Assembly (NCBI GenBank): GCA_031082125.1
Contig: JAVHLM010000013.1
Location: 1 to 64,000, forward strand
DNA: 64,000 nt
From: Candidatus Eremiobacterota bacterium
GTDB lineage: Bacteria; Vulcanimicrobiota; CADAWZ01; Ess09-12
Direction of reading: 5' to 3'
The notes beneath the pieces were generated by a model that saw only the letters and a list, made by a program, of their open reading frames with translations, was not told the origin of the DNA and searched no databases. Below, piece after piece: positions 1,683 through 18,529 of the stretch. Within the stretch, counting starts at the first letter, position 1. Each line of letters opens with the position of its first letter. The translations under genes were made by a program, and so were the position numbers.

Positions 1683-4292
1683 ATGGATTCTTCAGAGATT
1701 GGGCGGTTTCAGCCTTCCTTTGTAAGCCATGATCCCAAAAGACAGCCGCCGGCGAAGAGCAGTGGGCCGCCGCCTGGCGACAGTGTGCCCTGTGACGGCT
1801 TTGCAGGGTCTGTGCCTTCCGGTAAGGAGTCAAAGCTCCAGCGAGGAGCTTCAGAGGTAAAAATGTCACCGCCTGCTGAGCCGGAAAAGCAGGAGCAGGT
1901 CAATCCTCTTCTGTCGGCCCTTGAGATCCGTGAAAAGCTCGAGAGCCTCACGGGTGCCGAGCGGACCGAATTCATCAGGGACTTTCGGGAAAAGAACGCC
2001 GGCAAGATCTTTGTCTCCATCGATCTTCACGATCACCAGCCTATCTATCGCCCCGGAGTTCACCCCGCCGACACTCCCGAGTACAACAATTATGTTCTGG
2101 GAACGGGCGATGCGGAGAACCGGAGAGAAGTATACCGCGATGCCGAGGCTTATGCCGTTGAATCGATGAAAGGGAAGCCCGACTATCCCCATTTCGGGAT
2201 CCAGGTCTCCTTTTCAGGCTCTCTCATGGAAAACATGGAAAAGTCCGCCGAGCGCGGGCTCTGGCCGGGCAAGGACTGGAGCAGCCATTACCGGAACCTC
2301 CGCAAGGATTCCTTCACCTCGGAAGGGAACCCGCGACTGGATTTCGTCAACATCGGCTATCATCATCCCCTCATGGGGCTTATCGCCACGGGCCACACTG
2401 ATGGCGGCGTCAACAGCGACAAGGATATAGAGCTCCAGATCAAGATGCACCAGCATGCCGTTGACAAGCTCTTCGGCGGCCCCATTTCCAAGGGATTCTT
2501 TCCGCCGGAGATGGCTTTCAGCGAGCGCATGATACCTGCCATCAAGAAGGCGGGCATTGAATGGACCATGGTGGACAACCTCCACTTTGACCGTGCCAAC
2601 GAGGATTACCACAACACGGCCGACGGCCTCAAGCCGCCCAACAAGGCTGACAGAAGGAACCCAGGCACTCATACCTATGAGACGCTTCCCAATGACCTTG
2701 CCAAGGTCCACCTTGTGTCGCCTGAGGCCCTCAAGCCCCACTACGTGAAACATGTGGACCCCATGACGGGCAGCGAGGAGCTCATGGTCGTAGTCCCCGA
2801 GGAGCGCTCCCTCTCGTCGTATATCCAGAAGGATCGTGACGGGAGCAAGATCCAGGACGTCATCACCAAGTTCCAGAAATACAATACCGATCCTGCCCAT
2901 CCCCTCTTCGTGCTTTTCGCCACCGACGGCGACAACAACGGCTCAAACAGCGGGGAGTTCCACAGGAACGTCCCCATAGATATGGCGACGCGGTACCCGG
3001 GCCAGGTGGTCTTCACTACCATCTCGGACTACCTGGAGCTTTTCCCTCCCGAGAAGCCGAAACTGGTCTCGGGCCAGGGCGAGCCGAAGCACTACGAAGG
3101 AGGCGACGTGATCCATGTAGAGGACGGCGCCTGGTGGGGAGCCAACCTGGGCGATCCCCAGTTCTCGAAATGGATGGACGACCCCGCTTATACAGGCTAT
3201 TCGCCTAAAAAGAATTCATGGGCCACCCTTACGGCAGCCAAGAACGAGGTCCTCACCGCCGACAGCCTCGAGCCTGCCGGCCTGACAAAAGAAAGCATCG
3301 GCAATATCATAGCCGGGAGCGGCACCGATACTGAGAAGGCCTGGAACAATCTCCTCGTGGGCCAGACTTCCTGCTATGAATACTGGAACCCCGACAATGT
3401 CCTCTCCTATTCGTCGGTGACGGGCGCCAACAGGGCCGTGGAAGATGCCCGCAAGGTCATCGACCGCCATGGCAAGGACAAGGACGCCGTGGGCCCAAGC
3501 ATATTCCTTCCCATGCACTACCCTTACAACCCCAAGGGCATGCCTTCGAGCTTCAACGTGGTGAGCTATGTCTATGACGTGAACAACGTGAAGTCCGTGG
3601 AAGTGAAATACCGGACCGATGATGACGGCAAGCTCGACAGATCCCAGGATTTCATGTTTGAGGGGACAGGCGTCAAGCCCTGGAAGAGCGGGCATGCCAT
3701 GACAAAAATGCCTTTCCCGGACCTTCCCAACAAGCCCGATGTGTGGGTGGACCCCAAGGTGAGGGCCGATGAGTACAGGACCAAGGTGGAGCTTGAAGTC
3801 CCCCAGGGCAAGGAGGGCGAGCTTGTTCAGTATTACGTCGAAGCCGAGGATATGAAGGGGAATATATCGCGGTCGCCTATCCAGCACGTCTATGTTTCAG
3901 CGGCAGGGGCGCCTGCCGAGGTGACCAACGAGGAGCTCCATAACCAGCTCAAGTCGGGCGATCCCGACACACAGGCGACGGCGGTGGCCTTTGTGCTCAC
4001 CACGGGGAGAAATGATCCCAACATCTTCAACCATGTCTTCTTCCGCCTCGAGCAGGCCGATGAGAAGCTCCTGAAAAGCCTCGAAAACCTGGCCATCAAG
4101 GAGAAGATAAAGCTTTCCGCTGATCCGAAATTCAGGGATGAGTACATCACCAGGCTTGACAAGCACCTTGTGAAAGAGGAGAATACGGCGAAGATAAAGT
4201 CTCTGCCCCATCTCTCATATTTCATGTCCCATCCTCTCGCGGACATGGCAGGTGATCCCCGCGTGGCGAGGATTCTTGCCAAGCTTTCATGA
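1683..4292 (+). CDS. Glycoside hydrolase family 57-like protein
   Basis: The protein has 869 residues. Residues 1-75 are Pro/Ser/Lys-rich and probably disordered. The catalytic (beta/alpha)7 barrel begins near 108. The GH57 signatures are present: HDHQPIY at 116-122 (motif HxHQP), GYHHP at 225-229, and GFFPPEMAFSE with E276 as the likely nucleophile. A later ATDGDNNG segment fits the fourth motif. Residues about 600-740 resemble a beta-sandwich and the last 120 are helical. GH57 enzymes act on alpha-glucans (amylase, branching enzyme) or related sugars; the substrate cannot be read here. No signal peptide is visible, so it is probably cytoplasmic. The stop overlaps the next start (ATGA). Confidence 0.8.
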   Translation: MDSSEIGRFQPSFVSHDPKRQPPAKSSGPPPGDSVPCDGFAGSVPSGKESKLQRGASEVKMSPPAEPEKQEQVNPLLSALEIREKLESLTGAERTEFIRDFREKNAGKIFVSIDLHDHQPIYRPGVHPADTPEYNNYVLGTGDAENRREVYRDAEAYAVESMKGKPDYPHFGIQVSFSGSLMENMEKSAERGLWPGKDWSSHYRNLRKDSFTSEGNPRLDFVNIGYHHPLMGLIATGHTDGGVNSDKDIELQIKMHQHAVDKLFGGPISKGFFPPEMAFSERMIPAIKKAGIEWTMVDNLHFDRANEDYHNTADGLKPPNKADRRNPGTHTYETLPNDLAKVHLVSPEALKPHYVKHVDPMTGSEELMVVVPEERSLSSYIQKDRDGSKIQDVITKFQKYNTDPAHPLFVLFATDGDNNGSNSGEFHRNVPIDMATRYPGQVVFTTISDYLELFPPEKPKLVSGQGEPKHYEGGDVIHVEDGAWWGANLGDPQFSKWMDDPAYTGYSPKKNSWATLTAAKNEVLTADSLEPAGLTKESIGNIIAGSGTDTEKAWNNLLVGQTSCYEYWNPDNVLSYSSVTGANRAVEDARKVIDRHGKDKDAVGPSIFLPMHYPYNPKGMPSSFNVVSYVYDVNNVKSVEVKYRTDDDGKLDRSQDFMFEGTGVKPWKSGHAMTKMPFPDLPNKPDVWVDPKVRADEYRTKVELEVPQGKEGELVQYYVEAEDMKGNISRSPIQHVYVSAAGAPAEVTNEELHNQLKSGDPDTQATAVAFVLTTGRNDPNIFNHVFFRLEQADEKLLKSLENLAIKEKIKLSADPKFRDEYITRLDKHLVKEENTAKIKSLPHLSYFMSHPLADMAGDPRVARILAKLS

Positions 4293-5056
4293 AATTGGGC
4301 GCCGTCAGGGAAAACAAGTGTCGAGGCAAGGGGAGCCCTTGCCTCGCTCAGCGTACACCCCATGCAGGAGGAACCTCCTCAGATGAGAGGATCCTCACCG
4401 ATGTGCCCCTTTTCTCAGAGCTCGGCAGCAAGGAACTGGAGGATCTTGAGGGAATCGCCGTCTCAACAAGGTTTCACAAAGGGGAGTATATTTTTTTTCA
4501 GGGAGAAGAGGGGGGCGCTTTTTTTATAATTATCTCGGGAAAAGTGAAGATTGTAAGGGACTCTCCCAGCGGGAGGGAGATCACCCTCGCCGCCCTTTCA
4601 AGGGGGGATTCCTTCGGCGAACTCTCGCTTCTGGACGGGAAGTCCCGCTCAGCATCGGTCGTGGCCATTTCCAAGGCGGAGGTGCTCGTGATTTTCCGCG
4701 GTGACTTTGAAGAATACCTGCGCACTCATCCTGAGGTGGCTATAAAGCTTCTCACCGTGTATGCAGGCCGCCTTCGTGATGCCAACAGGCGGATTGAAGA
4801 CCTGGCATGCCATTCGGTGAGGGGGAGGCTTGCCCAGATGATGCTTGACAGCGTGGCGGGAAATGGAGTGATATGCGAGGAAGGCGTCGTTTTTCAGCTT
4901 CCCTCTTCACATAAGGAGATCGCCTCGCAGCTTGGCACAAGCCGCGAGACTGTCTCGAGAACTCTTGCCGCCCTCTGCAATGAGGGATTTATCAGGATGA
5001 TGAAGAGCCAGGTGACCGTACCCTGCCTGGAATCGCTCAGGTCACTTGTGCTGTGA
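4289..5056 (+). CDS. Crp/Fnr family transcription regulator
   Basis: The protein has 255 residues. A cyclic-nucleotide-binding beta roll lies at about 40-155, with the phosphate-binding-cassette-like FGELSLLDGKSRSASV retaining the Arg and Ser. A dimer helix follows, then a Crp-type winged helix (about 190-250) with the recognition segment TSRETVSRTLAAL. Only two Cys occur near the N terminus, so an Fnr-type iron-sulfur cluster is unlikely. The ATG overlaps the glycosidase stop. The first 35 residues look unlike the family and a later start is possible, but no in-frame ATG is available. Translational coupling suggests control of carbohydrate use. Confidence 0.85.
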   Translation: MKLGAVRENKCRGKGSPCLAQRTPHAGGTSSDERILTDVPLFSELGSKELEDLEGIAVSTRFHKGEYIFFQGEEGGAFFIIISGKVKIVRDSPSGREITLAALSRGDSFGELSLLDGKSRSASVVAISKAEVLVIFRGDFEEYLRTHPEVAIKLLTVYAGRLRDANRRIEDLACHSVRGRLAQMMLDSVAGNGVICEEGVVFQLPSSHKEIASQLGTSRETVSRTLAALCNEGFIRMMKSQVTVPCLESLRSLVL

Positions 5057-5062
5057 GGGATC

Positions 5063-6973
5063 ATGGCTGCTTTTGAAGGTCTCAGAGAAATTCACCGGGA
5101 GCCCCTGTCCCTTCTTGAAGGGGGGCAACCCCGGGAGGCCGCTGAATATCTTTCACGCCTGCTGAAAAAGAGGAAAATCACTCCCATTGAGAGAGCCTTC
5201 CTGTATTTTCACCTTGCGAGGGCTTACGGGAGACTGGCCCGTTTCAATGAAGCCGAGAGATGTCTCCGTCTGGCCATCAGCCACTGCACACCCGGGGCCC
5301 CGGAGGAGCTGGTCGCCCTGTATCAGGAGCAGGCTCTCCTGTGGTACAGGAGAAACCATCTCACGAGAGCCCGGAGAGCCCTTGCCAGGAGCGCTTTGCT
5401 GCTGAAAGGCCTGGAGAGAACAGCACCCTTTGCAAGATACCTCCATTACCGCGGCCTTTGCTTCTCCAAAGCCTCCCTGAGGGTTGAGGCCATGGAGAGC
5501 CTGAAGCAGTCCCTCGCGCTCTACCGCGCACTGGAGCTCCCGGCCGAACAGTCCCAGGTCCTTGATACCATGGGGATGATCTTCACCGAGATGGGGCAGG
5601 TCGAGGAGGCCCTCGGCCATTACCAGGAATCACTCCGCCTCAAAGAGCGGGAAGGCGATGAATACGGAATTGCCATCACCCTTGGAAACCTGGGGAGATG
5701 CTCTCTTCAGAACATGGAATTCCGCAAGGCGATTGATTTTTTTCAGAAGGACCTTGCGCTCTGCGAAAAGCTGCAGGACTCCCATGGCCTCATGGTGATG
5801 TGCAATAACCTCGGGAGAGCTTTCACCTCCCTGAAGGAGACCGGCAAGGCCTCGGGGTACCTAGAGAGGAGCCTTTCAATGGCCCGCGAGGCAGGAAACG
5901 AGATATGGAGCGCAATCAATGAAAAGGACATCGCCTATAATCATCTCAGCTCGAGCGAGCTCGGTGAGGCATCGGGGAAGCTGACCGGCGCCCTCGAGAC
6001 CTTCCGGCGCTTTGATGCGAGGCCGCTCGTGGCCGAGGCCTTGAAAATCCATGCCATAGTGCTCAGGGCTGAAGGCCGCTTTGAAGAAAGCATGAAACGC
6101 TTCCACGAAGCGCTTGAGCTCTATCAGGGGCTTTCCATCCCGTTTCAGACTGCCGAGGTCCTTTTTCAGATCGGCCTGCTCTATCACAGGATGAATGACA
6201 AGCCTCAGGCAGTGTCCTATCTGGAAAAGGCGATAGAGATAGCAGAAAAACTCAATGCTCAATGGCTTTTGCAGAAATTTGAGAGTCTCCTTGCCGAATT
6301 GCACGAGGGAGAATGGCTCAGGCTCTGCCTGAAGCGTTATGTCGGCGAAGATCTCGTCGATACGGTGCTCTCAGAAACTTTTCAAACAGGAAAAAGGATG
6401 AGAGCAACGGTACTCTTCCTTGACCTGAAGCCGGGAAGGCTCTTTTTCGAGAGGGCTCTCGCCGAGGAGGTAGTCTCCCTCTTTAACGATTATTTCAGCA
6501 GGTTCTCCGAGATTATAGCCAGGGAGAGCGGGACAGTGGAAGGATTCATCGCCCAGGAGATGATGGCCTATTTCGGCGTGACGGGGCACTCCGATGACAA
6601 CGCCCTTCATGCAGTGAGAAGCGGCTGCCGTATCATGGAGGCCTCTCTTCAGCTTGCCCAGGCCCGTGAGAGAAGGGATCTCCCCGTTCCCGGCATCGCC
6701 GTGGGCATCAACACCGGAGAGGTTTACGCCGGCAACGTGGGCACCTATCTCAGAATGCAGTTTAAAGTCACGGGAAGCACCGTGAATCTGGCTTCCAGGA
6801 TTCTCCACAAGGCCAGGGCGGGGCAGGTGCTTCTGAGCGAAAGCGCGTTCTGCGAGGTGAGAGACCATGTCACGGCGAATCCCCTCAAGCCTCTGGTATT
6901 GAAAGGGGTCAGGGAAGAGCAGCCCGTGTGGGATGTTGACTGGAAGAGCACGATTAAATGGGCATCCCCGTGA
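5063..6973 (+). CDS. TPR protein with degenerate class III cyclase domain
   Basis: The protein has 636 residues. Residues about 25-440 are tandem TPR repeats (at least eight). Residues about 448-630 have the fold signature of a bacterial class III adenylyl/guanylyl cyclase. The first metal Asp is kept (D454 in LFLDL), as are the N575 and R579 transition-state residues in TVNLASRI. The second metal Asp is Gln (Q498 in FIAQEMMAYFG, usually FIGD). The base-selecting Lys is Gly (G494) and the Asp before TVN is Ser (S572). It is therefore probably a non-catalytic sensor or scaffold. It follows the Crp/Fnr gene by 6 bp, so a link to a cyclic-nucleotide-type receptor is suggestive but unproven. Confidence 0.8.
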   Translation: MAAFEGLREIHREPLSLLEGGQPREAAEYLSRLLKKRKITPIERAFLYFHLARAYGRLARFNEAERCLRLAISHCTPGAPEELVALYQEQALLWYRRNHLTRARRALARSALLLKGLERTAPFARYLHYRGLCFSKASLRVEAMESLKQSLALYRALELPAEQSQVLDTMGMIFTEMGQVEEALGHYQESLRLKEREGDEYGIAITLGNLGRCSLQNMEFRKAIDFFQKDLALCEKLQDSHGLMVMCNNLGRAFTSLKETGKASGYLERSLSMAREAGNEIWSAINEKDIAYNHLSSSELGEASGKLTGALETFRRFDARPLVAEALKIHAIVLRAEGRFEESMKRFHEALELYQGLSIPFQTAEVLFQIGLLYHRMNDKPQAVSYLEKAIEIAEKLNAQWLLQKFESLLAELHEGEWLRLCLKRYVGEDLVDTVLSETFQTGKRMRATVLFLDLKPGRLFFERALAEEVVSLFNDYFSRFSEIIARESGTVEGFIAQEMMAYFGVTGHSDDNALHAVRSGCRIMEASLQLAQARERRDLPVPGIAVGINTGEVYAGNVGTYLRMQFKVTGSTVNLASRILHKARAGQVLLSESAFCEVRDHVTANPLKPLVLKGVREEQPVWDVDWKSTIKWASP

Positions 6974-7433
6974 TGATGCCCTCAAATACCACTTTGCCTT
7001 TTACCACGCCCTGGGTTTCAAAGATAGCGATCCTGCTCTTCAGCTCCGTGTTCTTTGCTATCAGTATGAGCCTGTCACCGGGAAGGACGGTGCCGCGGAA
7101 CTTCACCTTGTCGAGGCCACCAAAGCCGAGGAACCTCCTGGGATCGTCGTTGAGGGCGATCTTATAAAAATAAGTGCAGAGCTGCGCAGCGGCCTCGATG
7201 ATGAGGACCCCGGGGAAAATGGGGCGTCCCGGAACATGACCTTTAACCCAGAACTCGCTGTCAGAGACGTCCTTGTAGCCTATGATGAATTTGTTCTGCC
7301 GGTCAATGGTGAAGATCCCCGAGAGCTGCTCCATGTCGAAGCGCTGCTGGTTGATCTTCCGGATCTCCTCGATGGGGATTTCCGTTCTGGATAAATCGAG
7401 AGCTGCGAGATCATAAATGAGTCTGGCTGCCAT
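6954..7433 (-). CDS. FabZ/FabA-like hot-dog dehydratase
   Basis: The protein has 159 residues. The hot-dog fold carries the FabZ active-site stretch: H66 in KGHVPGRPIFPGV and E80 in LIIEAAAQ, the His/Glu pair that dehydrates 3-hydroxyacyl-ACP. A GGAGGG sits about 8 bp before the ATG. Its 3' end overlaps the TPR-cyclase gene by 20 bp, convergently. No other fatty acid genes adjoin it, but it is divergent from the glycosyltransferase operon. It may be a second FabZ used for an acylated glycolipid, or a general dehydratase; the substrate is unknown. Confidence 0.8.
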   Translation of the reverse strand: MAARLIYDLAALDLSRTEIPIEEIRKINQQRFDMEQLSGIFTIDRQNKFIIGYKDVSDSEFWVKGHVPGRPIFPGVLIIEAAAQLCTYFYKIALNDDPRRFLGFGGLDKVKFRGTVLPGDRLILIAKNTELKSRIAIFETQGVVKGKVVFEGIITGMPI

Positions 7434-7611
7434 AAAGCCCTACCCTCCGGGAGTCCTGACCCATGCCAGGAAATTGTTTTCTCATGATATTACGGGCTTT
7501 TCCCGGGGAAATCCTTCCATGGAGAGGAGTCCGTGCTGATAGGATTCAAGGGCGCAAAGTGAGAATTATCTTCTTTCATGGAAGGGCCCATCGTTGAAAG
7601 GACCGGATCAC

Positions 7612-8679
7612 ATGGGGAAAAAGATTCTTATTATCCATCTTGCGGGAGGACTGGGCGATCTTCTGCTCTCCACGGCGCTCCTTGAGCCTCTCAGGCATCA
7701 TTTTCCCCGCTCGTCAGTTACCATGATGGTGCGTGATGAGCTCAGGGAAGCTGTGGAAGGCCATCCAGCCCTCGACGGCGTGATAGGTGTCCCGGGGGGG
7801 AACCTGAAAGGGTGGGGAAACCTCAGCCGCCGGGCTGAAGCCCTCAGGAAGGAGAGCTTTGATACAGGCATTGTGCTCTGGAGCAGGGTGGAGGAAGCGT
7901 GGCTGCTCTTTCTCTCAGGCATTCCCACGAGGGTCGGCCAGGACTCCAGGCTTTTTTACAGCTTTCTCTATACCCACCGGGTCAGGGTCAGATCGGAGCA
8001 TCACGATACCACGAGCCACTGGGTTGATATAATGCTTGATTATGCAAGGATACTGGGCTGTGAGGCTGAGGCACCTGAAGTGGCCATCCATGTTGACGGA
8101 AAATCAGAAGAGCGGGCGGGTGCCATACTTGCCCGCGCAGGATGGGATGGAAGCTCACCGCTTATAGGCTTTCACGTCGGCAAGGGGCTCCCTCTCGATG
8201 AGAAACGTTGGCCTGTCAACTTTTTCGCGGGCCTGGCCGATGCAGTCGCCGGGCGCTTCGGAGGCAGGGTCCTTCTGACCGGCAGCGGCATGGAGAGGGG
8301 ACTTGTGAATGCCGTGGCCACCCTTATGAAGCAGAAGCCCCTTAATATTGCAGGCGAGACCTCTATCAAGGAGCTCGCGGCGGTAATTTCCCGCTGCCAG
8401 GTCTTTGTCTGCCCCGATTCGGCTCCCATGCACCTTGCTGCGGCGATGAAGGTGCCCACGGTAGGAATCTTCGCCCTTGCAAGCGATTTTCCCTCAAGAT
8501 GGCGGCCTTATGGAACGGAATACGAGGTCGTTCTCCCCCCGGGCAGACGCTGCGCGAAAAAATGCGTGAAAGAGCACTGCAATGACTTCTCCTGTTACCA
8601 TGACATACCGGTGGCTGATGTGCTTGACGCCATTGAGAGGCTCACGGGCAAAAGGAGGAAATTTAATCAAGTCCCCTAA
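7612..8679 (+). CDS. GT9 heptosyltransferase-like glycosyltransferase
   Basis: The protein has 355 residues and is the first gene of the glycoconjugate operon. It begins KKILIIHLAGGLGDLLLST, the GT9 (WaaF/WaaC) N-terminal motif, and has the C-terminal donor site CPDSAPMHLAAAMKVPTVGIF. GT9 enzymes transfer heptose from ADP-heptose to lipid A-core or other acceptors. The frame extends to a TTG at 7594, but ATG 7612 has GAAAGG upstream and matches the family N terminus. A Cys-rich C-terminal stretch (CAKKCVKEHCNDFSC) resembles that of many GT9 proteins. It works with the HldE-type enzymes encoded at 10.9-12.4 kb. Confidence 0.88.
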   Translation: MGKKILIIHLAGGLGDLLLSTALLEPLRHHFPRSSVTMMVRDELREAVEGHPALDGVIGVPGGNLKGWGNLSRRAEALRKESFDTGIVLWSRVEEAWLLFLSGIPTRVGQDSRLFYSFLYTHRVRVRSEHHDTTSHWVDIMLDYARILGCEAEAPEVAIHVDGKSEERAGAILARAGWDGSSPLIGFHVGKGLPLDEKRWPVNFFAGLADAVAGRFGGRVLLTGSGMERGLVNAVATLMKQKPLNIAGETSIKELAAVISRCQVFVCPDSAPMHLAAAMKVPTVGIFALASDFPSRWRPYGTEYEVVLPPGRRCAKKCVKEHCNDFSCYHDIPVADVLDAIERLTGKRRKFNQVP

Positions 8680-8739: not shown

Positions 8740-9894
8740 TTGAAGATAGGAATTGATGCCTCTTTTCTTGCACGGGACACAAGGGGAATGGGAAGGGCTA
8801 CCCGCAGCATAGTCGCCCGGATGCTTGGCCTGTTCAACCACGAGTTTTATTTCATAATGGTCAAGCATAAATCTGATGAGAAAAGTATTCAAAAGCACTT
8901 CCCCGAGAAGAAGCTCGATTTCATGACCGTAAAGGACTCCAGGATTTCCATGCTCGATGTCATATGGTTTCCCTGGAGCAGGATAGATTTTTTCCCTTCG
9001 GCACGGAGAGCCGTGACCATTCATGACCTGGCCCCTTATCGCTATTCGCACAAGAGAAAGGGAAGCGAAGGCTATAACGACAGGAAAAGGATCAAGGAGG
9101 CCTGCGAGGCCGCCGACATGATAATCACCCCGTCGGATTTCTCACGGAGCGAGATTTGCACGTTCCTTGAGATACCGCAGGAGAAGATTGAAGTGATCCC
9201 CCATGGAGTCGAGGAGATCTTCAAGCCCCAGGAGCTGGAGAGGGAGAAGGCAGCGCAGTACCTTGACCGCTTCAGCAAAGGGCTCCCCTATATTCTCTTC
9301 GTGGGCAACGTGGAAAAGCGGAAGAACATTGATGTGCTCCTCTATGCCTTTGAAAAGGCGAAGAAGGAGTATACCTTTCCTCATAAGCTTATCGTGGCGG
9401 GAAAATGCCCGGGGACCCTCGTGGGAAGCAACGGCACAACGGGATGGTCCCGGAAGCTCTTGTCCCGTATCGGGATCCCAAAGAAAACCACGAAAAACTC
9501 AATTGTATCGCTGGTGGAGAAGCTCTCCGTAAAAGAGGATGTGGTGTGGCTGGGGGAAGTGACTGATGAAGACCTTCTGGCCCTCTACAACCTGGCGAAG
9601 CTCTTTGTCTTTCCCTCCTTTTATGAAGGCTTCGGCCTCCCGATCCTGGAGGCGATGGCGTGCGGCGTGCCATGCATAGTCTCGGAAATACCTCCATTCG
9701 TGGAAGTGGCCCAGGATGCCGTGGCATACTTTGATCCCAAGAATGCCGCCGATCTCGCCGAAAAAATGTGGCTCATCATCTCAGATTCGGACCTCACGGC
9801 GAAGATGAGGAAGAGAGGATTTGAACAGGCTCAGAAGTACCAGTGGGATGTCTCGGCTCACAAGCATATCAAGGTCCTGGAGGAGCTCCGCTAA
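8740..9894 (+). CDS. GT4 family glycosyltransferase
   Basis: The protein has 384 residues with a GT-B fold: an N-terminal acceptor domain, and a C-terminal donor domain from about 180. The retaining-transferase motif FPSFYEGFGLPILEAMACG (EX7E) is intact, and NVEKRKNI precedes it as in mannosyl/glucosyl transferases. The start is TTG, supported by AAGGAG 8 bp upstream and by the immediate KIGIDASFLARDTRG motif. The next gene begins directly after its stop. Its likely role is addition of a hexose to the operon's glycan. Confidence 0.88.
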   Translation: MKIGIDASFLARDTRGMGRATRSIVARMLGLFNHEFYFIMVKHKSDEKSIQKHFPEKKLDFMTVKDSRISMLDVIWFPWSRIDFFPSARRAVTIHDLAPYRYSHKRKGSEGYNDRKRIKEACEAADMIITPSDFSRSEICTFLEIPQEKIEVIPHGVEEIFKPQELEREKAAQYLDRFSKGLPYILFVGNVEKRKNIDVLLYAFEKAKKEYTFPHKLIVAGKCPGTLVGSNGTTGWSRKLLSRIGIPKKTTKNSIVSLVEKLSVKEDVVWLGEVTDEDLLALYNLAKLFVFPSFYEGFGLPILEAMACGVPCIVSEIPPFVEVAQDAVAYFDPKNAADLAEKMWLIISDSDLTAKMRKRGFEQAQKYQWDVSAHKHIKVLEELR

Positions 9895-10854
9895 ATGCCC
9901 ATGCACTTTGAGCCTCTTGATTTCTCGCGGATCCGCACCTACTCGATTGCCGCGAGGAAAAACAAGGTGTCATGTCAGGGGTTTGCCAGGCCCTACCGCG
10001 AAGGCTCCACCTTTGCCGATTTTATTGCGACAATCCCGTCGATCCTCGCAGGCGGTGAGTACCGGGAGATCATAGATTCCATCGTGAAGGCCCATCTTTC
10101 CCGCCGGCTCGTCCTTCTTACCATGGGAGCCCATGTGATAAAGGTGGGATTATCACCCATTGTGATAGACCTTGTGAAAAGGGGCATCATCAATGCAATA
10201 GCCTTCAACGGCGCGGGAAGTGTCCATGACCTGGAGATTGCCCTCGTGGGCGAGACATCGGAAAATGTGGCCGATGGAATCAGGGAGGGCACATTCGGCA
10301 TGGTCCGTGAAACGGGTGATATACTTAACGAATGCGCCCTCAGGGCTTACGAGGAAAAGAGGGGATTCGGGGAGGTAATAGGCGAGCGCATTTCGGAAGC
10401 ACCTTTCGCCTCGATGAGCATATTCGCAGAGGCCCGGAAGGCCGGCGTACCCACCACTGTCCACGTCGCACTGGGAAGCGATATCTTTCACACCCATCCC
10501 GCAGCCCGCGGCGATGCTATCGGCGCCGCATCCTTCCATGATTTCAGGCTGCTGTGCGGGATCATCTCCCAGGCCACCGAAGGGAGCGTCATCATGAACG
10601 CCGGTTCGGCCGTGGTGCTTCCCACCGTCATTGAGAAGGCCATAGCCGCGGCCAGGAACCTGGGCTGCAGGGTGGAAGGCTTTACCGGCATCAATATCGA
10701 TTTTCTCAGGCAGTACCGCTCTCTCAACAACCCGGTGAACCGGGCGAAGGAGCTTGGAGGAAAGGGGTACAGCCTCACGGGCCACCATGAATTCATGATC
10801 CCCCTGATTGCCGCGGGAGTCATAGAAGAGCTCCGCAGGACAGCGGGCAACTGA
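9895..10854 (+). CDS. Conserved protein of unknown function in heptose operon
   Basis: The protein has 319 residues and starts directly after the preceding TAA, with GGAGGAG inside the upstream gene. It reads as one soluble alpha/beta domain with strong glycine-rich and His-containing motifs: AFNGAGSVHDLEIAL, GSDIFHTHPAARGDAIGAA, MNAGSAVVLPTVIEKA and GHHEFMIPL. The order and style of these motifs faintly recall deoxyhypusine-synthase-type NAD-binding proteins, but this is a weak impression. There is no signal peptide or membrane segment. Its place between a GT4 and the heptose kinase suggests a part in sugar or acceptor supply. Confidence 0.75.
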   Translation: MPMHFEPLDFSRIRTYSIAARKNKVSCQGFARPYREGSTFADFIATIPSILAGGEYREIIDSIVKAHLSRRLVLLTMGAHVIKVGLSPIVIDLVKRGIINAIAFNGAGSVHDLEIALVGETSENVADGIREGTFGMVRETGDILNECALRAYEEKRGFGEVIGERISEAPFASMSIFAEARKAGVPTTVHVALGSDIFHTHPAARGDAIGAASFHDFRLLCGIISQATEGSVIMNAGSAVVLPTVIEKAIAAARNLGCRVEGFTGINIDFLRQYRSLNNPVNRAKELGGKGYSLTGHHEFMIPLIAAGVIEELRRTAGN

Positions 10855-10877: not shown

Positions 10878-11885
10878 ATGATGCTTATTGAAAGGGAAAG
10901 AGCAAGGGAGCTTATTTTCAACTTCAGGGAAATCAGCATGCTGGTCCTTGGCGACAGCATGCTGGATCAATGGATCTGGGGGAAGGTGAACCGCATATCC
11001 CCTGAGGCCCCTGTACCCGTCGTGGAGGTTGATTATTACTCCTATTCACCGGGAGGGGCGGCAAACGTGGTAAACAACCTCTGCTCCCTCGGTGCCAGAA
11101 GCTCCATTGTGAGCATTATCGGTGAAGACGAATACGGTGTGAGGCTGAGACAGGAGCTTTCAGGGAGAGGCGTTGATGTCACGGGACTGGTAACAGACCC
11201 TTCAAGGCCCACAACGACCAAGTCAAGAATTATAGCGAACCATCAGCAGGTATGCAGGACTGATATCGAGAAACGCGACAGGATAAACGGTGGGATGACA
11301 GAGAAGCTCGGCGCGCACCTTGAAGAGAGCCTTGAAAAGCACAAGCTCGTGGTGATATCTGATTACAACAAGGGGCTGCTGAACGACGGGCTTGTTGGCA
11401 GGATAATGCAATGGAAGGCAAGAACGGGGGGCAAGGTCGTTGTGGGCCCGAAGCCGGAAAACATCGGCATCTTCAAGGGTGCCACCCTCATCGCTCTCAA
11501 TGAAAAAGAAGCGGTGAGCGTTGCCGGCGAGAAGATTAACGACCAGGAGAGCCTTGGCAGGGTGGGGCAGACGATCCTCAGTGAATTCAAGAACGAGGCA
11601 GTGCTGATCACCAGGGGGGAGAAGGGAATGGCTCTCTTTACCGATAAAGGCGAAACTGCCAGCGTATCAGCCCTCGCAAGCGAGGTATTTGACGTGAGCG
11701 GGGCGGGCGATACGGTGCTCTCAGTGGTGGCCCTCTCGCTCCGGGCGGGCGCCTCGTTCAGGGAGGCCATGATCCTCTCCAATTTTGCCGCCGCCGTCGT
11801 CGTGAAGAAGGTAGGCACCGCCACCGTCTCAATCTCCGAGCTTATCGACGTGATTGACAAGCAGCATCTTTCAACCGCTTTCTGA
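10878..11885 (+). CDS. hldE domain 1 (rfaE1): D-glycero-beta-D-manno-heptose-7-phosphate kinase
   Basis: The protein has 335 residues of the PfkB/ribokinase fold. It carries LGDSMLDQWIWGKVNRISPE (substrate site), the GGAANV segment and the catalytic DVSGAGDTV motif near the C terminus. It phosphorylates heptose-7-phosphate at C1 in ADP-heptose synthesis. In E. coli this is the N-terminal half of HldE; here it is a separate gene, with the second half encoded next. GAGGAG precedes the start. Another ATG is adjacent (10881). Confidence 0.9.
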   Translation: MMLIERERARELIFNFREISMLVLGDSMLDQWIWGKVNRISPEAPVPVVEVDYYSYSPGGAANVVNNLCSLGARSSIVSIIGEDEYGVRLRQELSGRGVDVTGLVTDPSRPTTTKSRIIANHQQVCRTDIEKRDRINGGMTEKLGAHLEESLEKHKLVVISDYNKGLLNDGLVGRIMQWKARTGGKVVVGPKPENIGIFKGATLIALNEKEAVSVAGEKINDQESLGRVGQTILSEFKNEAVLITRGEKGMALFTDKGETASVSALASEVFDVSGAGDTVLSVVALSLRAGASFREAMILSNFAAAVVVKKVGTATVSISELIDVIDKQHLSTAF

Positions 11886-11927
11886 CAGGTGGCCCGGCCC
11901 CGGCGGCCAGGAGCGAGGTTTTTCCTT

Positions 11928-12410
11928 ATGGGTAAAGAGAAGCTCAAGAGCCTCGAGGAACTCTCGGAGATTGTGGCCCGCTTCAAAGGTGAAGGCCTGA
12001 AGGTGGTCTTTACCAACGGCTGCTTTGACATACTTCATGTGGGCCATGTCAGGCTTCTTGCGGCGGCAAAGACCTTTGGTGACATCCTGATCGTGGGCCT
12101 CAACAGCGACAGCTCAGTGAAGCGCCTGAAAGGTGAAAAGAGGCCCATAGTGAGCGGTCCCGACAGGGCTGAGGTGCTCAGTGCCATTGAATCGGTGGAT
12201 TATGTGGTGCTCTTTGAAGAGGACACCCCTGTAAGAGTGATAGGCGCCTTGAAGCCCCATGTGCACGTGAAGGGCGGCGATTATGACCTCGAGAAAATCC
12301 CTGAAGCGGAAGTGGTGCGCTCCTATGGAGGAGAGCTCAGGGCATTTTCCCTCGTGGACGGGCGCTCTTCCACAGATATCATAGAAAAAATCGGGGGGAC
12401 GCTCATCTGA
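11928..12410 (+). CDS. rfaE2: D-glycero-beta-D-manno-heptose 1-phosphate adenylyltransferase
   Basis: The protein has 160 residues with a nucleotidyltransferase fold. The TNGCFDILHVGHV segment carries the HxGH ATP site, and VKGGDYD and the C-terminal GRSSTDII match HldE domain 2. It makes ADP-heptose from heptose-1-phosphate and ATP, the donor for the three GT9 enzymes. A GTG at 11889 is in frame, but ATG 11928 with GCGAGG 9 bp upstream fits the family length. It lies 42 bp after the kinase, so the pathway order is kept. Confidence 0.9.
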   Translation: MGKEKLKSLEELSEIVARFKGEGLKVVFTNGCFDILHVGHVRLLAAAKTFGDILIVGLNSDSSVKRLKGEKRPIVSGPDRAEVLSAIESVDYVVLFEEDTPVRVIGALKPHVHVKGGDYDLEKIPEAEVVRSYGGELRAFSLVDGRSSTDIIEKIGGTLI

Positions 12411-12447: not shown

Positions 12448-14583
12448 ATGAATAAAACTGAGAAGCGCATATATGTCCTTGCCAACAGCCCCGGCGAGAT
12501 AGCGGGGTGGCTCAGGCCTTCCGTAAAGGTGCTGAAAGAGCTTCTCCCCGAATACGGTATATCTGTCGTGCTCCTCCCCTGCGTCTTTGCCTCAGGCGGT
12601 GAAAAGTCCGTGGTCCAGGCCATCCCCGGAGTTGACGAGGTCATTCCCCCTGCCGGGTATCCCGCCCTCCTCCTCGACAGGAGCGGCAAGTCCAGCGCCG
12701 AGCTTCTCCATCTGGGCGGGGAGATTACCCTCACAGCATTCCTCGCCAGGTCATGGGAAGCCCCTGCATGGGCTTATCAATGGGGTAAGAAAAGCGTTGA
12801 TCAGTACTTCCACGGCTATTTTGTCAAGACCGAGAGCGACAGGGAGGCCCTTGTCCGGAGCGGCATAAGCGGGAACAAGGCTTTTGTCGTAGGTGATCTC
12901 CTCGTGGACTCCGTGAAGGGTGCCCTCAAGGGAGACACCGTTCCCCGCGAGGAAGGCCCGGTTGAAGAGATATGCTTCATGGCGGGAAGCCGCCTCAAGG
13001 AGCTCCGCACGCTTCTCCCCTTTTACCTGGAGATTTCAAAGTACCTGAGGGAGAAATTCCCGGCCGTGAAGTTCAAGGCCCTCATCTCTCCCTTTGTGGA
13101 CTGGCAGCAGTTTGCCGGGGACCGGGAACTTCTCCCTGTGAGGCAGTTCGGGGGGCTGAGGGGAATCATTGACGAGAAAGAGGAATACCTCCGCTCTGAT
13201 GAGGGCCTGGCCATCCGCCTTGTGAGGGAGAATCACCTTGACGAGCTTGCAGGCTCCGATTTCGTCATCACCATTCCCGGGACCAAGACCGGCGAGGCGG
13301 GGTGCCTTGGCAGGCCCATGGTGGTCCTCCTTCCTCTTAACAGGCCTGAGGAAATTCCCTACATAGGGATTGTGGGGCTCCTGGACTGGCTTCCTCTCCT
13401 TGGGCGCCTCCTGAAAGCTCCCCTTATCAGGAGAATTGCAAAAACCCTGGGAGCCGTGGCCCAGCCCAATATCCTGGCGCGCCGCGAGATCGTGCCAGAG
13501 ATCAAGGGTGTCCTCGAGGCCCGCCAGGTTGCCGGGCAGGTAATGACCTTGATGGCTGATCAAGAGGCTCTCGCAAAGATGAGAGGAGACCTCAAGGAGC
13601 TTTACCGCCCCTTTGAAGGGGCCACTGAGCGCATGATAAGGATATTCGCAAAGTCAGCGAGACCTGACCTGGACAGTGAGACTCCCTGTTTCTCCCTTGT
13701 CATCTGCACAAGAAACAGGAAAGAGCTCCTTGAGGGTGCCATAAAGACCCTTGATGACCAGAAGTTCCCTTCCGCCGGCTATGAGATACTTGTCGTCGAT
13801 GACGGCTCCGAGGATGGCACCGACGAGCTGGTCATGACGATGAAGACCCGGTGTGCACTCAGGTATCTCAAGCGTACATGGGGCGGAAGGGCTGCCACAA
13901 GGAATTACGGGATACAGGAAGCCCGCGGCGACGTCATAATCTTTGTCGATGACGATATTCTTGCGCCGCCGGACTTCATCGCCGAGCATGCAAGGTTTCA
14001 CAGGATGTTCCCCAGGGCTGTCGTGAGGGGACCTATCATCAATATAGACAGGTACGAGTTTCCCCGCGACATCAAGGCGGGCCTTACCGATTTCTCTCAG
14101 GCTTTCTTCTGCACCTGCAACGTCTCTGTTCCCAGGAGAGAACTTCAGGATGTGGGGGGGTTTGATGAGAGCTTCGTAGAATATGGATATGAGGACAATG
14201 AGGTGGGCTGGCGCCTCCGCCAGAGGGGGCTCAAAGCCAGGTTCAACACGAAGGCCATCATTTATCATTACAAGCCGCGGAAGAGGGAGGAGGATCTCCC
14301 GGCGATGATCAGGACGGCCCAGGAGCTTGCCCGCTCGGCGGTGATGTATTATGAGAAGCATCCCGACCTGAAGGTGCGGCTTGCCACAGGCATCAATTCG
14401 CTCTATTTTCTGAAGCAGTCACTTTTTGCAGGCCCTTTTTTCAAGAATCGATGGGTCAGGAAATGGAAAAAGCTCGTGCATGGCGGCACGAACAGCGAAA
14501 TGCTCGCCGTGGAGAAGAAGATTTTCGGCTATTATTACGCGGAAACCCTCAGGGAGGAACTTAAAAAGAAAGGACTGTTATAA
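12448..14583 (+). CDS. LpxB-like glycosyltransferase fused to a GT2 domain
   Basis: The protein has 711 residues. Residues 1 to about 395 belong to the lipid-A-disaccharide-synthase-related group: the N terminus has ANSPGEIAGWLRP and the donor half has FMAGSRLKEL and TIPGTKTGEAG. Residues about 408-700 form a GT-A family 2 transferase: FSLVICTRNRKELL, VVDDGSEDGTDE, the DxD region IFVDDDILAP, and a GYEDNEVGWRLR catalytic-base region. LpxB proper joins UDP-diacyl-GlcN to lipid X; the relative seen here may use another acceptor. A single polypeptide could perform two successive transfers. The stop is 3 bp before the next ATG. Confidence 0.85.
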   Translation: MNKTEKRIYVLANSPGEIAGWLRPSVKVLKELLPEYGISVVLLPCVFASGGEKSVVQAIPGVDEVIPPAGYPALLLDRSGKSSAELLHLGGEITLTAFLARSWEAPAWAYQWGKKSVDQYFHGYFVKTESDREALVRSGISGNKAFVVGDLLVDSVKGALKGDTVPREEGPVEEICFMAGSRLKELRTLLPFYLEISKYLREKFPAVKFKALISPFVDWQQFAGDRELLPVRQFGGLRGIIDEKEEYLRSDEGLAIRLVRENHLDELAGSDFVITIPGTKTGEAGCLGRPMVVLLPLNRPEEIPYIGIVGLLDWLPLLGRLLKAPLIRRIAKTLGAVAQPNILARREIVPEIKGVLEARQVAGQVMTLMADQEALAKMRGDLKELYRPFEGATERMIRIFAKSARPDLDSETPCFSLVICTRNRKELLEGAIKTLDDQKFPSAGYEILVVDDGSEDGTDELVMTMKTRCALRYLKRTWGGRAATRNYGIQEARGDVIIFVDDDILAPPDFIAEHARFHRMFPRAVVRGPIINIDRYEFPRDIKAGLTDFSQAFFCTCNVSVPRRELQDVGGFDESFVEYGYEDNEVGWRLRQRGLKARFNTKAIIYHYKPRKREEDLPAMIRTAQELARSAVMYYEKHPDLKVRLATGINSLYFLKQSLFAGPFFKNRWVRKWKKLVHGGTNSEMLAVEKKIFGYYYAETLREELKKKGLL

Positions 14584-15495: not shown

Positions 15496-16554
15496 GTGGC
15501 CATTAACCCCCTGCCCAGGAACATAGCGGTGGTGAGGCTTGATGCCCTGGGTGACACCATACTCACCATCCCTCTGCTGGACAGCCTCAGGAAGCTCGTC
15601 CCCGGGGCCCGGATCGTGGTCATCGCCTCACCAAGGGGATACCCTGCCCTCAAGGACAGCCATTCTGTTGACGAAGTCCTTGTCATTGAGCCTGGAGAGC
15701 TCACCTGGACAAGGATGAGAACTGTTGCGGGGCAGCTCAGGGAGAGAAACATAGCCCTTTCCATAAATGTGACGGAAAAACTGGGAGGCTACCTCATCCC
15801 CTTCATGGCCCCCGTGCCCGCCAGGATAGGCTTCAATCCCGGATTTATCCAGCCAGTCAAGGAGTGCATCTGCCAGGCTCTGCTGACCCATAAGATCCAT
15901 TATATGAACGATCCCTCCAGGCCCGGGGGGGAGCATGAAATAGAAAGGCAGCACAGGCTTCTTGAGCCCCTTGGCGGGGAGGGGAGCCCCGGTCCCTACC
16001 GTATTGCCATTGACGAGGAGCACGGGAAGTGGGCCAGGGAGTTCCTTGGCGCCGCCTGCGGCGGCGCGGCAGTGCCGGTAGCGCTCCATCTTTCAAACAA
16101 GTGGCTTGATGACGGCGGGAGCGATGACTTCCTGAGAATTCTTGCCGGGGAGCTGCAGAAAATGAGCCATCTTGTCCTCACCTATGGCCCTGCGGAAAAA
16201 GCCTGGGCAGAGCCCTTTGCGGCCTCTCTCGGCCAGGAGCGCCTCACGGTGTTCCATGATCCTTCCTATCTGAGGTGGGCGTCGGTGCTCTCCCTCACCA
16301 AGGCGCTTGTCACCATGGATACCTCTGCCGGCCACGTGGCCGCCGGTGTCTCTCTGCCTGTCGTGGATGTCTTTCCTTCCCTTTACTTTGCCCATTGCAC
16401 GGAAAGGTGGCACCCTTGGAGGGTTGCGCATAGATTGGTCGAAAAGAAATCATTGCAGGAGGTAAGCGGCAGGGAAAAAGAGGAGAGGCAGGAGGAACTG
16501 CTTGCCCATATCATGAAAGCCCTTCAGGAGCTTCTGCAATGCCAGAATTCATAA
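15496..16554 (+). CDS. GT9 heptosyltransferase-like glycosyltransferase
   Basis: The protein has 352 residues and is the second GT9 gene. It shows IAVVRLDALGDTILTIPLLD at the N terminus and the donor-binding TMDTSAGHVAAGVSLPVVDVF near residue 275. The start is GTG, with a purine-rich GGAAAGGGAGAG upstream. It overlaps the following GT2 gene by 16 bp. The expected role is transfer of heptose to the growing glycan. Confidence 0.87.
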   Translation: MAINPLPRNIAVVRLDALGDTILTIPLLDSLRKLVPGARIVVIASPRGYPALKDSHSVDEVLVIEPGELTWTRMRTVAGQLRERNIALSINVTEKLGGYLIPFMAPVPARIGFNPGFIQPVKECICQALLTHKIHYMNDPSRPGGEHEIERQHRLLEPLGGEGSPGPYRIAIDEEHGKWAREFLGAACGGAAVPVALHLSNKWLDDGGSDDFLRILAGELQKMSHLVLTYGPAEKAWAEPFAASLGQERLTVFHDPSYLRWASVLSLTKALVTMDTSAGHVAAGVSLPVVDVFPSLYFAHCTERWHPWRVAHRLVEKKSLQEVSGREKEERQEELLAHIMKALQELLQCQNS

Positions 16555-17468
16555 GCGTAGTCATCCCCACCTTCAACAGGAGGGAGACCCTCAGGGTGAT
16601 CCTCCCTGCTCTTGCCATGCAGACCTATTCCCGTGACCTCTACGAGATTATCCTGGTTGACAACGGATCCAGTGACGGCACCGATGAGATGATCCACGCC
16701 CTGAGGCTGCCTAACCTCCGATACATCGTCCAGGAGAACAGCGGCCGCTCGGGAGCGCGGAACAGGGGCATAAGGGAGGCACAGGGCACCCTGGTGCTTT
16801 TCACCGATGCCGATATCATTCCCGACAGGCGCCTTCTCGAGAGCCATGCCCGCTTCTACGATTCCCACAGGAATTCGGCCGTGGTGGGCTGCGAGGTTCA
16901 GGTCAACACGCTTGAGGAATACGAGGCTGTCAGGGATCACAGAGGCCTCTGGAGAACCCTTCACCCTGACCGCAGAACCAGGCTCTCGTGGCTTTATTTC
17001 CTCACGGGGAATGCCCTCGTGGAGAAAGCCACCCTTGTCAGGGTGGGGATGTTTGATGAGAATTTCACCGGGTACGGCCATGAAGACCTTGAGCTGGGCT
17101 ACCGGATAGAAAAGAGCGGGACTCCCATCCTTTATAACCATAAGGCCGTGAATTATCACTGGCATCCCGTGTCATTCGATGAGCAGTGCAGCAAGATGCA
17201 CCTGGCAGGCATCTCTACAGTACGCTTTCACCGCAAGCACAGGGACTTTCAGATCAAGCTCCGGCTCGGCATGACGCCTCTCTCCCTGGGCATGCACTCC
17301 CTTTTGGCCGGCGACGGCTGGCTTATGAAAGCCTGCGAGCGGAGCAAGGGCTCATCGCCTCTCTGCAAGGACATTGTGCTTCAGCATCATTATCTCAATG
17401 GCATCAAGGAGGCGCTCTCCCTGGAGGCTGCTGCCGGGCCGTTTCCCCGTGACGGGAGCCGGGAATGA
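16539..17468 (+). CDS. GT2 family glycosyltransferase
   Basis: The protein has 309 residues. The GT-A signature is complete: ISVVIPTFNRRETLRV, ILVDNGSSDGTDE, NRGIREAQG, the DxD FTDADIIPD, and GYGHEDLELGYRIE. It is more distant from the two upstream GT2 domains than they are from each other. It overlaps both neighbours (16 bp and 4 bp), so the GT9-GT2-GT9 genes are read as one transcript. Confidence 0.88.
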   Translation: MPEFISVVIPTFNRRETLRVILPALAMQTYSRDLYEIILVDNGSSDGTDEMIHALRLPNLRYIVQENSGRSGARNRGIREAQGTLVLFTDADIIPDRRLLESHARFYDSHRNSAVVGCEVQVNTLEEYEAVRDHRGLWRTLHPDRRTRLSWLYFLTGNALVEKATLVRVGMFDENFTGYGHEDLELGYRIEKSGTPILYNHKAVNYHWHPVSFDEQCSKMHLAGISTVRFHRKHRDFQIKLRLGMTPLSLGMHSLLAGDGWLMKACERSKGSSPLCKDIVLQHHYLNGIKEALSLEAAAGPFPRDGSRE

Positions 17469-18529
17469 CGGCTTCTGAAAAGGAACAGTTCCAGAATATT
17501 CTTGTCATCAGGCTTGACAAAGTGGGCGACCTGCTCCTTTCCACGCCCTTTCTGCGCAACCTCCGGGAATGCTATCCCCACTCGCACATTGCCGTGCTGG
17601 TGAAGCCCTATACGAGGGAGGTGCTTCTCGGCAACCCCCATGTCGATGAAATAATAGTCCACCATCATGGTGACTCCCTGATTCGGGCTCTCATGGCGGC
17701 ATCGCCTCTCAGGAGCAGGCCCTGGGACATGGCCGTGGCTCTCTCTCCCACGGTGATCTCCTACGTGACGGCAATGCTTTCCGGCGCCAGGGAGCGTGCT
17801 GGCTATACCTACTCAAGAAGAATCGCTGCCCGGCTCATAGCTGCTGCTACGCTCACAAGCTACAGGGTGCTTGCCATAGATGAGGCTCTCGCCGGTGGTG
17901 AAGCGATCCCCCATGAAGTCCGGCAGACCTTTACCATTCTCGAGGAAATGGGGTGGAATCCCGGCGATTATCCCCTGGAAGTCTATCCAGGCAGAGAGGC
18001 GGGCGATTATGCCGCCGGGCTCATAGGAAAATCCGCTCCGGGAAAGAAATTAATAGGAATCCATCTCTCCTGGAAGTGGCTCACCCCTCCGTGGACCGCT
18101 CATGACATGCTCACCTTCATAAGGAAGGTGGCGGCTGACTATAAGGAATACGGCGTCCTGGTAACTTACGGCCCCGAGGAGGAGCATGTGGCGGAAGAGA
18201 TGGAGAGGGACTTCCTCAATGAGGGGAATGTGTTTTTCGCAGGGGGCCTGGCCTTCAGGCAGTGGGCTGCCCTTATAGGCCGGTGCAGCATATTTTTCTC
18301 GACCGATACGGGCTCCCTTCACTGTGCCGCAGCGATGGGAGTCCCCACGGTGTGCCTTTATGAAAAGAGGACCTTTACCCACTGCTCACAACAGTGGGCG
18401 CCCTGGAAAATTCCGGCAGTGATTATAGAAAAGGATGACCCTTCGGGTACCATAGAAAGGCTGATTGAGGGATGCAAAAAATTACTCAAGGAGACTGTAA
18501 GCCATGAAACAAGACGCGGAGAAATATAA
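17465..18529 (+). CDS. GT9 heptosyltransferase-like glycosyltransferase
   Basis: The protein has 354 residues and is the third GT9 gene. It begins with NILVIRLDKVGDLLLSTPFL and has the donor motif FFSTDTGSLHCAAAMGVPTV. The initiating ATG overlaps the preceding stop (ATGA). Its 3' end overlaps aspS by 26 bp, so translation of the tRNA synthetase is tied to the glycosylation operon. Confidence 0.87.
   Translation: MTASEKEQFQNILVIRLDKVGDLLLSTPFLRNLRECYPHSHIAVLVKPYTREVLLGNPHVDEIIVHHHGDSLIRALMAASPLRSRPWDMAVALSPTVISYVTAMLSGARERAGYTYSRRIAARLIAAATLTSYRVLAIDEALAGGEAIPHEVRQTFTILEEMGWNPGDYPLEVYPGREAGDYAAGLIGKSAPGKKLIGIHLSWKWLTPPWTAHDMLTFIRKVAADYKEYGVLVTYGPEEEHVAEEMERDFLNEGNVFFAGGLAFRQWAALIGRCSIFFSTDTGSLHCAAAMGVPTVCLYEKRTFTHCSQQWAPWKIPAVIIEKDDPSGTIERLIEGCKKLLKETVSHETRRGEI

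Follow-up and report, generated by a model that had tools for sequence, protein, structure and literature searches.

In the window, that is, the whole stretch of DNA that was analysed (64,000 nucleotides of a Candidatus Eremiobacterota contig), we found a gene of the GSU2086 family lying between genes for a GT4 glycosyltransferase and for the two activities of HldE, in a region that also encodes three GT9 heptosyltransferase-like proteins (Table 1). It starts at the base right after the GT4 stop codon, and 23 bases separate its end from the HldE kinase ORF. The GT9 protein encoded upstream of GT4 is a likely user of activated heptose. The first-pass annotation had described a soluble protein of 319 residues between a GT4 and a heptose kinase, and profile searches confirmed both the ORF and its neighbours (GT4, rfaE kinase, adenylyltransferase and GT9); the three motifs it quoted, including GSAVVLP, are all present. 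Its description of the protein as unrecognised has to be corrected, as NCBIfam already names the family in the model NF052581 ("GSU2086 family"), though without assigning it a function. The window protein matched this model at E 9e-110 (cut-off 250 bits) over profile positions 1-300 of 301, and 42 diverse homologues aligned along it with 36 invariant columns. Given this score and this alignment the ORF is not a chance reading frame; it is a real gene and a clear member of NF052581. When the window protein was compared with 67 relatives from fetched loci, R21, G78, H80, K83, N105, G106, H111, E114, S122, E123, D216, G237, S238, K248, N255, D269, Y274, R275, R283 and E299 were invariant in all 68 sequences and H190, D196, H199, H201 and H298 nearly so. 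A search of plasmids for relatives returned only three records at E<=10. The gmhA gene of the window genome is located on another contig than the GSU2086-family gene. This genome also encodes two GmhB-like phosphatases (L094 and L095; G000 C16 and C1), one of which directly follows a SIS protein with weak likeness to GmhA.

Table 1. ORFs of the heptose gene region and its surroundings in the window, with profile matches
Feature	Position	Strand	Match or remark
869-aa ORF	1683-4292	+	no NCBIfam match at E<=1e-10
CRP-like regulator	4289-5056		adjoins the TPR protein
TPR protein	5063-6973	+	C-terminal part (about 469-622) aligns with a kinase/cyclase fusion model
FabZ-like dehydratase, upstream of the cluster	6954-7433	-	94.8 bits, FabZ cut-off 155
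GT9 heptosyltransferase-like protein	7594-8679	+	PF01075 E 1.5e-33; TIGR02195 113.1 bits, below cut-off 134.6
GT4 glycosyltransferase, directly upstream of the GSU2086-family ORF	8740-9894	+	PF00534 E 9e-37
GSU2086-family protein, 319 aa, ATG start	9895-10854	+	NF052581.1 366.9 bits; predicted DHS/ArgZ-like fold; proposed HldD-replacing heptose C6 epimerase
HldE kinase (rfaE kinase domain)	10878-11885	+	TIGR02198 344.7 bits, just under cut-off 345
HldE adenylyltransferase domain as its own ORF (heptose-1-phosphate adenylyltransferase), GTG start as listed	11889-12410	+	TIGR02199 204.3 bits, cut-off 181.5
711-aa ORF adjoining hldE, apparent fusion	12448-14583	+	N-terminal part weakly matches LpxB / TIGR03492 (lipid-A-disaccharide-synthase-related); C-terminal part is an EpsD-type GT2
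Second GT9 heptosyltransferase-like protein	15496-16554	+	TIGR02195 E 2.5e-12, below cut-off
Third GT9 heptosyltransferase-like protein	17465-18529	+	TIGR02201 E 1e-27, below cut-off

An AlphaFold2 model of the window protein, built on an alignment of 11 sequences, reached a mean pLDDT of 81.1 and a pTM of 0.81. The top 36 rows of a Foldseek search of this model against the PDB were all deoxyhypusine synthases (DHS; best E 8e-9, TM 0.62, 9iej). VIA-align gave ArgZ as the best structural match (6juy_C, Z 20.3, rmsd 2.9, 212 residues), together with AgrE (Z 20.1, and 19.9 for its complex with ornithine and NAD+), archaeal DHS (7cmc_A, Z 20.0, 269 residues) and the LOR/SDH structure 3c2q (Z 19.7), which is linked to TIGR00300. 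The predicted fold class is thereby that of deoxyhypusine synthase and of the ornithine cyclodeaminase domain of ArgZ and AgrE, as the first-pass annotation had distantly suspected from the style of the motifs. To our knowledge this fold has so far been tied to polyamine and amino-acid chemistry. Sequence comparison agreed weakly with the fold, the best PDB profile match being again ArgZ (E 5e-5). Among 42 members of the GSU2086 family, 29 matched PF21570 (at E<=0.01), 22 matched PF01916, 20 matched a DHS model and 22 weakly matched TIGR00300 (best E 2.5e-6), to which the window protein itself showed no match at E<=0.01. The window protein scored 20.6 bits against PF01916 (DS; cut-off 27), 16.7 against TIGR00321 (cut-off 304.25) and 17.3 against PF21570 (cut-off 27). 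Since these scores do not reach the curated thresholds set for the DHS and ArgZ models in question, the protein is, as judged from its sequence, a relative of these families rather than a member. The catalytic lysine with which DHS forms an imine is Lys307 in the P. horikoshii enzyme (excerpts of PMC7432094). The profile alignments of the window protein end near residue 120, short of this region; K83, K248, R275 and R283 are among its residues invariant in 68 homologues.

We screened for the family and for HldD in 148 evenly drawn genomes of the window's phylum, including the window's own, taking family presence at E<=1e-10 and counting HldD over the TIGR02197 cut-off. The family occurred in 31 genomes (30 over cut-off) and HldD in 99, and no genome encoded both, against 20.7 expected by independence (p=1.5e-19, a value that like those below treats the genomes as independent, though they are related and many are incomplete). 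Among the 131 genomes with an HldE adenylyltransferase, 30 had the family only, 88 HldD only, 13 neither and none both. At the level of genera (70 in total) the family was found in 25, HldD in 40 and both in a single one, with 14.3 expected. This genus, g27, is split by species: G031 and G125 carry the family, G062 carries HldD and G108 neither. The taxonomic families f9, f11 and f16 likewise contain both types in different species, and within f9 the count was 8 species from 8 different genera with the GSU2086 family vs 80 species with HldD, none having both (p=2.8e-7). The gmhA-gmhB-hldE region of g27 is 82-83% identical in nucleotides between G031 and G062 and has a common gene order, and in f9 three species with the GSU2086 family and two with HldD have an identical gmhA-gmhB-hldE order. 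We regard these swaps within families and within a genus as a better argument than the p-values, because the genomes are not independent. TIGR02197 was not among the seven NCBIfam families that matched the window protein at E<=1, that is, the protein has no HldD-family sequence match. A diverged HldD elsewhere in the window genome was considered and rejected: the best SDR protein (G000 C17) reached 153 bits to TIGR02197 (cut-off 274.6), scored higher as a GalE (176.8) and was 26% identical to E. coli HldD, and paralogs at 140-155 bits also occur in genomes with a true HldD (G005, G007, G011 and G015).

Excerpts of PMC5387315 give the order of the ADP-heptose pathway as GmhA-HldE-GmhB-HldE-HldD. 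Loss of the whole pathway as the cause of HldD absence could be ruled out, as GmhA, GmhB and HldE are retained. A GmhA-type isomerase was present in all 31 family-positive genomes of the window's phylum and a GmhB-type phosphatase in 30 (both at E<=1e-15, with G002 lacking the latter), where most GmhA and GmhB matches fall below the strict curated cut-offs. The HldE adenylyltransferase was found in 30 of the 31, and in the exception, G125, the kinase match is cut off by the end of the contig.

A comparable exclusion was seen in a second phylum, that of a Desulfohalobiaceae genome (G156; 277 genomes in an even draw, completeness floor 90, at most 7 first-look HldD candidates scored per genome). 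Here the family was present in 167 genomes, HldD in 64 and both in 11, against 38.6 expected (p=8e-16); HldE was found in 260. The 11 genomes with both genes (G169, G195, G205, G220, G225, G239, G248, G263, G291, G305 and G406) are unexplained. Their HldD is 60% identical to that of E. coli in G406, 57% in G305 and 41-44% in the other nine, and a recent transfer or contamination is possible in G406 and G305. Among 11 named family-positive genomes only one (G158) had an HldD over cut-off; its family gene is interrupted and falls into two frames (L012, 438-956 and 1042-1395), by either mutation or sequencing error. Genomes with neither gene (18/148 in the window's phylum and 57/277 in the second), many of which encode HldE, may use D,D-heptose, be incomplete or encode a third epimerase; therefore cells can sometimes do without both kinds of C6 epimerase, or else there is a third kind.

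The third phylum, that of an Armatimonadetes genome (G148), was sampled with 201 genomes (even draw, completeness floor 85, at most 10 first-look HldD candidates scored per genome), of which 96 encoded the family (94 over cut-off), 20 HldD and none both (p=1e-6). From these we inspected 20 loci (L122-L141), chosen as 10 high- and 10 low-scoring copies. A confident HldE pair adjoins the family gene only in L141 (kinase 244 bits, adenylyltransferase 169 bits), a diverged PfkB kinase (25-30% identity) occurs in seven (L125, L131, L134, L135, L136, L138 and L140), and the pattern HHExxxP was detected in three family genes only (L137, L139 and L141). The third-phylum count thus mixes orthologues and paralogs, and we give it less weight as independent proof because only one of the 20 inspected loci has a confident HldE pair and many copies are paralogs. 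The row of genes in locus L130 (1563-8009) encodes, in order, a GH94 phosphorylase and a GmhA-like SIS protein, then a protein with no match in Pfam, then a GSU2086 paralog followed by another SIS protein.

It is nearly certain, in our view, that the GSU2086 family belongs to the heptose pathway in those clades where it is linked to gmhA or hldE or excludes HldD. Probably the protein does the job of HldD, as its non-orthologous replacement. The observations behind this reading are the predicted fold class, the family membership, the exclusion of HldD, the retention of the other pathway genes and the operon links. From these we infer the C6 epimerisation, the level of its substrate (ADP-heptose or a heptose phosphate), its cofactor (NAD or a nickel-pincer nucleotide) and its chemistry; ADP-heptose 6-epimerase activity is a candidate function of the protein, to which the exclusion pattern lends indirect support. 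An earlier proposal had been that the gene might supply a missing step in sugar or acceptor preparation. Its sugar part has become the best reading, with HldD replaced and the pathway kept, and its acceptor part finds no support. The protein would invert C6 of manno-heptose, yielding L-glycero-D-manno-heptose for lipopolysaccharide (LPS). For this the C6 hydride would be taken onto a redox cofactor, most likely NAD+, bound by the DHS/ArgZ-like Rossmann-fold protein, the resulting 6-keto sugar would turn or shift, and the hydride would then be given back to the opposite face. NAD+ serves DHS and HSS as a prosthetic group that is both hydride acceptor and donor (excerpts of PMC4725965), and an AgrE structure was solved with ornithine and NAD+ according to the title of the PDB entry. 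A hydride taken and returned by bound NAD+ is the chemistry that an epimerase working by transient oxidation would need. A nickel-pincer nucleotide in place of NAD+ is conceivable because of the many invariant histidines and the weak kinship to TIGR00300. Among the observations against the replacement are that 11 of the 167 family-positive genomes of the second phylum also carry HldD, that some genomes have neither gene, and that only 6 of the 24 inspected copies of the window's phylum are near a heptose gene.

Gene neighbourhoods were read on the same strand within 3 kb. In the window's phylum, where 24 of the 31 positive genomes were inspected (11 of the 24 with only about 1.5 kb visible on each side), the heptose gene near the six linked copies is hldE. 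According to the first-pass annotation, homologues without a link to sugar genes would speak against its reading; the other 18 copies do lack any heptose gene within 3 kb, but their genomes show perfect HldD exclusion. Among the named relatives hldE was near the family gene in 7/7 loci of the Armatimonadota group and gmhA in 2/3 others. In the second-phylum locus L061 the genes gmhA, GSU2086, hldE and gmhB follow one another on a single strand, each scoring above an NCBIfam cut-off, and no HldD match was found in its genome (G412) in the second-phylum HldD search. Such a pathway set, which includes the GSU2086 gene and lacks only HldD, is most directly read as one where the HldD slot is filled. 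Locus L068 has the order gmhA, hldE kinase, gmhB, GSU2086. In Geobacter sulfurreducens, whose GSU2086 gave NF052581 its name, the locus number falls between hldE (GSU2085) and gmhA (GSU2087), and Tn-seq values on electrodes were -3.1 for hldE, -3.2 for GSU2086 and -3.7 for gmhA (excerpts of PMC5585712). These values support the pathway more than the step, as polarity on hldE may explain the match. Apparent gmhA fusions in the second phylum (frames of about 500-800 aa) were rejected, since the frame is extended upstream across gmhA, and gmhA itself is read in another frame.

It is conceivable that the protein works at an earlier step, epimerising sedoheptulose-7-phosphate or heptose-7-phosphate beside GmhA. 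HldE would then produce the L,D-form directly, which would make HldD superfluous. This would fit the tight pairing with gmhA in the second phylum, where gmhA was near the family gene in 34 of 36 genomes inspected (a non-random choice of 12 top-scoring loci, 20 mostly with long frames or on single contigs, 3 added by hand and 1 from the named relatives). It would also fit the paralogs of the third phylum, several of which lie beside diverged PfkB kinase, HAD phosphatase or SIS proteins at loci where a nucleotidyltransferase was not seen. These neighbours suggest that sugars or sugar phosphates are the substrates throughout the GSU2086 family, and point to sugar phosphates at least for the paralogs, which are possibly epimerases of other sugar-phosphate pathways. 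However, adjacency of genes says nothing about the order of steps, the window copy and all the Armatimonadota-group loci adjoin hldE, and known HldE and GmhB enzymes handle the D,D-form. We therefore consider an earlier step unlikely.

The exclusion pattern would also arise, and in identical form, if the enzyme made a different end product from the common precursor, such as another epimer or a keto or deoxy heptose, whose makers would have no need of HldD. On this view two heptoses would be made in the 11 genomes that carry both genes. Free swaps among close relatives with a common gmhA-gmhB-hldE operon, however, are easier to understand if the product is unchanged, and no reductase, dehydratase or aminotransferase was seen travelling with the gene among the neighbours that were read, a non-systematic survey. 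A different product thus seems somewhat less plausible still than an earlier step. Excerpts of PMC3354558 report heptose in the LPS of Desulfovibrio desulfuricans, and its stereochemistry was not found in these excerpts. Nor did we find, in the open-access literature, published LPS heptose chemistry with stereochemistry for a family-positive strain.

Relatedness of the genomes, the incompleteness of many and p-values that assume independence leave room for a clade effect or a sampling artefact, in which both genes merely mark lineages differing in their LPS. The exclusion, however, recurs in two phyla and, at the level of the family, in a third, and it persists within f9 and within g27, which makes this reading very improbable. 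Least credible of all is a polyamine enzyme, similar to deoxyhypusine or homospermidine synthase, that decorates the LPS core or stands in the operon by chance, as suggested by the DHS fold and the weak DHS profile matches, since the protein scores far below the DHS cut-offs and one would not expect HldD to be excluded by an enzyme that decorates the core.

By sequence, genomes carrying the family look as if they were without the last enzyme of the pathway. ADP-heptose supplies the LPS inner core and is itself an innate-immune signal. If the replacement of HldD is true, a whole functionless family would gain a function, a second, unrelated route to L-glycero-D-manno-heptose would exist, one could predict the chemistry of the LPS core in 167 of the 277 sampled second-phylum genomes, and the DHS/ArgZ fold would gain a sugar epimerase. 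More speculatively, and on balance doubtfully, the GSU2086 family might be a new class of sugar epimerases on the DHS/ArgZ fold that has repeatedly displaced HldD across phyla, with a nickel-pincer nucleotide as possible hydride carrier and with the Armatimonadota paralogs as further epimerases of GmhA/PfkB/HAD sugar-phosphate pathways. In the open-access literature we found no LPS role for proteins similar to deoxyhypusine synthase, no heptose role for deoxyhypusine synthase, and no link between the nickel-pincer nucleotide and ornithine cyclodeaminase. Among the matches listed on heptose in Geobacter or Desulfovibrio, on the absence of HldD and on the distribution of the pathway, none concerned a replacement of HldD.

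Compared with known systems, the window protein would share its pathway slot with HldD/RfaD (ADP-L-glycero-D-manno-heptose 6-epimerase, TIGR02197), from which it differs in having no sequence match and a predicted fold other than the SDR fold of that enzyme. With DHS (PF01916, TIGR00321; 1dhs, 7cmc, 8put) it has in common the predicted fold over nearly the whole chain, whereas identity is 12-17% and the Pfam-aligned region covers only residues 69-117 of the window protein. TIGR00300, an ornithine cyclodeaminase that NCBI names as nickel-pincer-nucleotide-dependent, is matched weakly by GSU2086-family members. The predicted fold is also that of the C-terminal ornithine cyclodeaminase domain of ArgZ and AgrE (PF21570; 6juy, 6lrf, 6lrg), at 14% identity, but the window protein is without the arginine dihydrolase part and stands in a sugar operon, whereas the context of ArgZ and AgrE is that of amino acids. 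Finally, the hldE of G. sulfurreducens is one bifunctional gene, whereas in the window the kinase and the adenylyltransferase are encoded by two ORFs.
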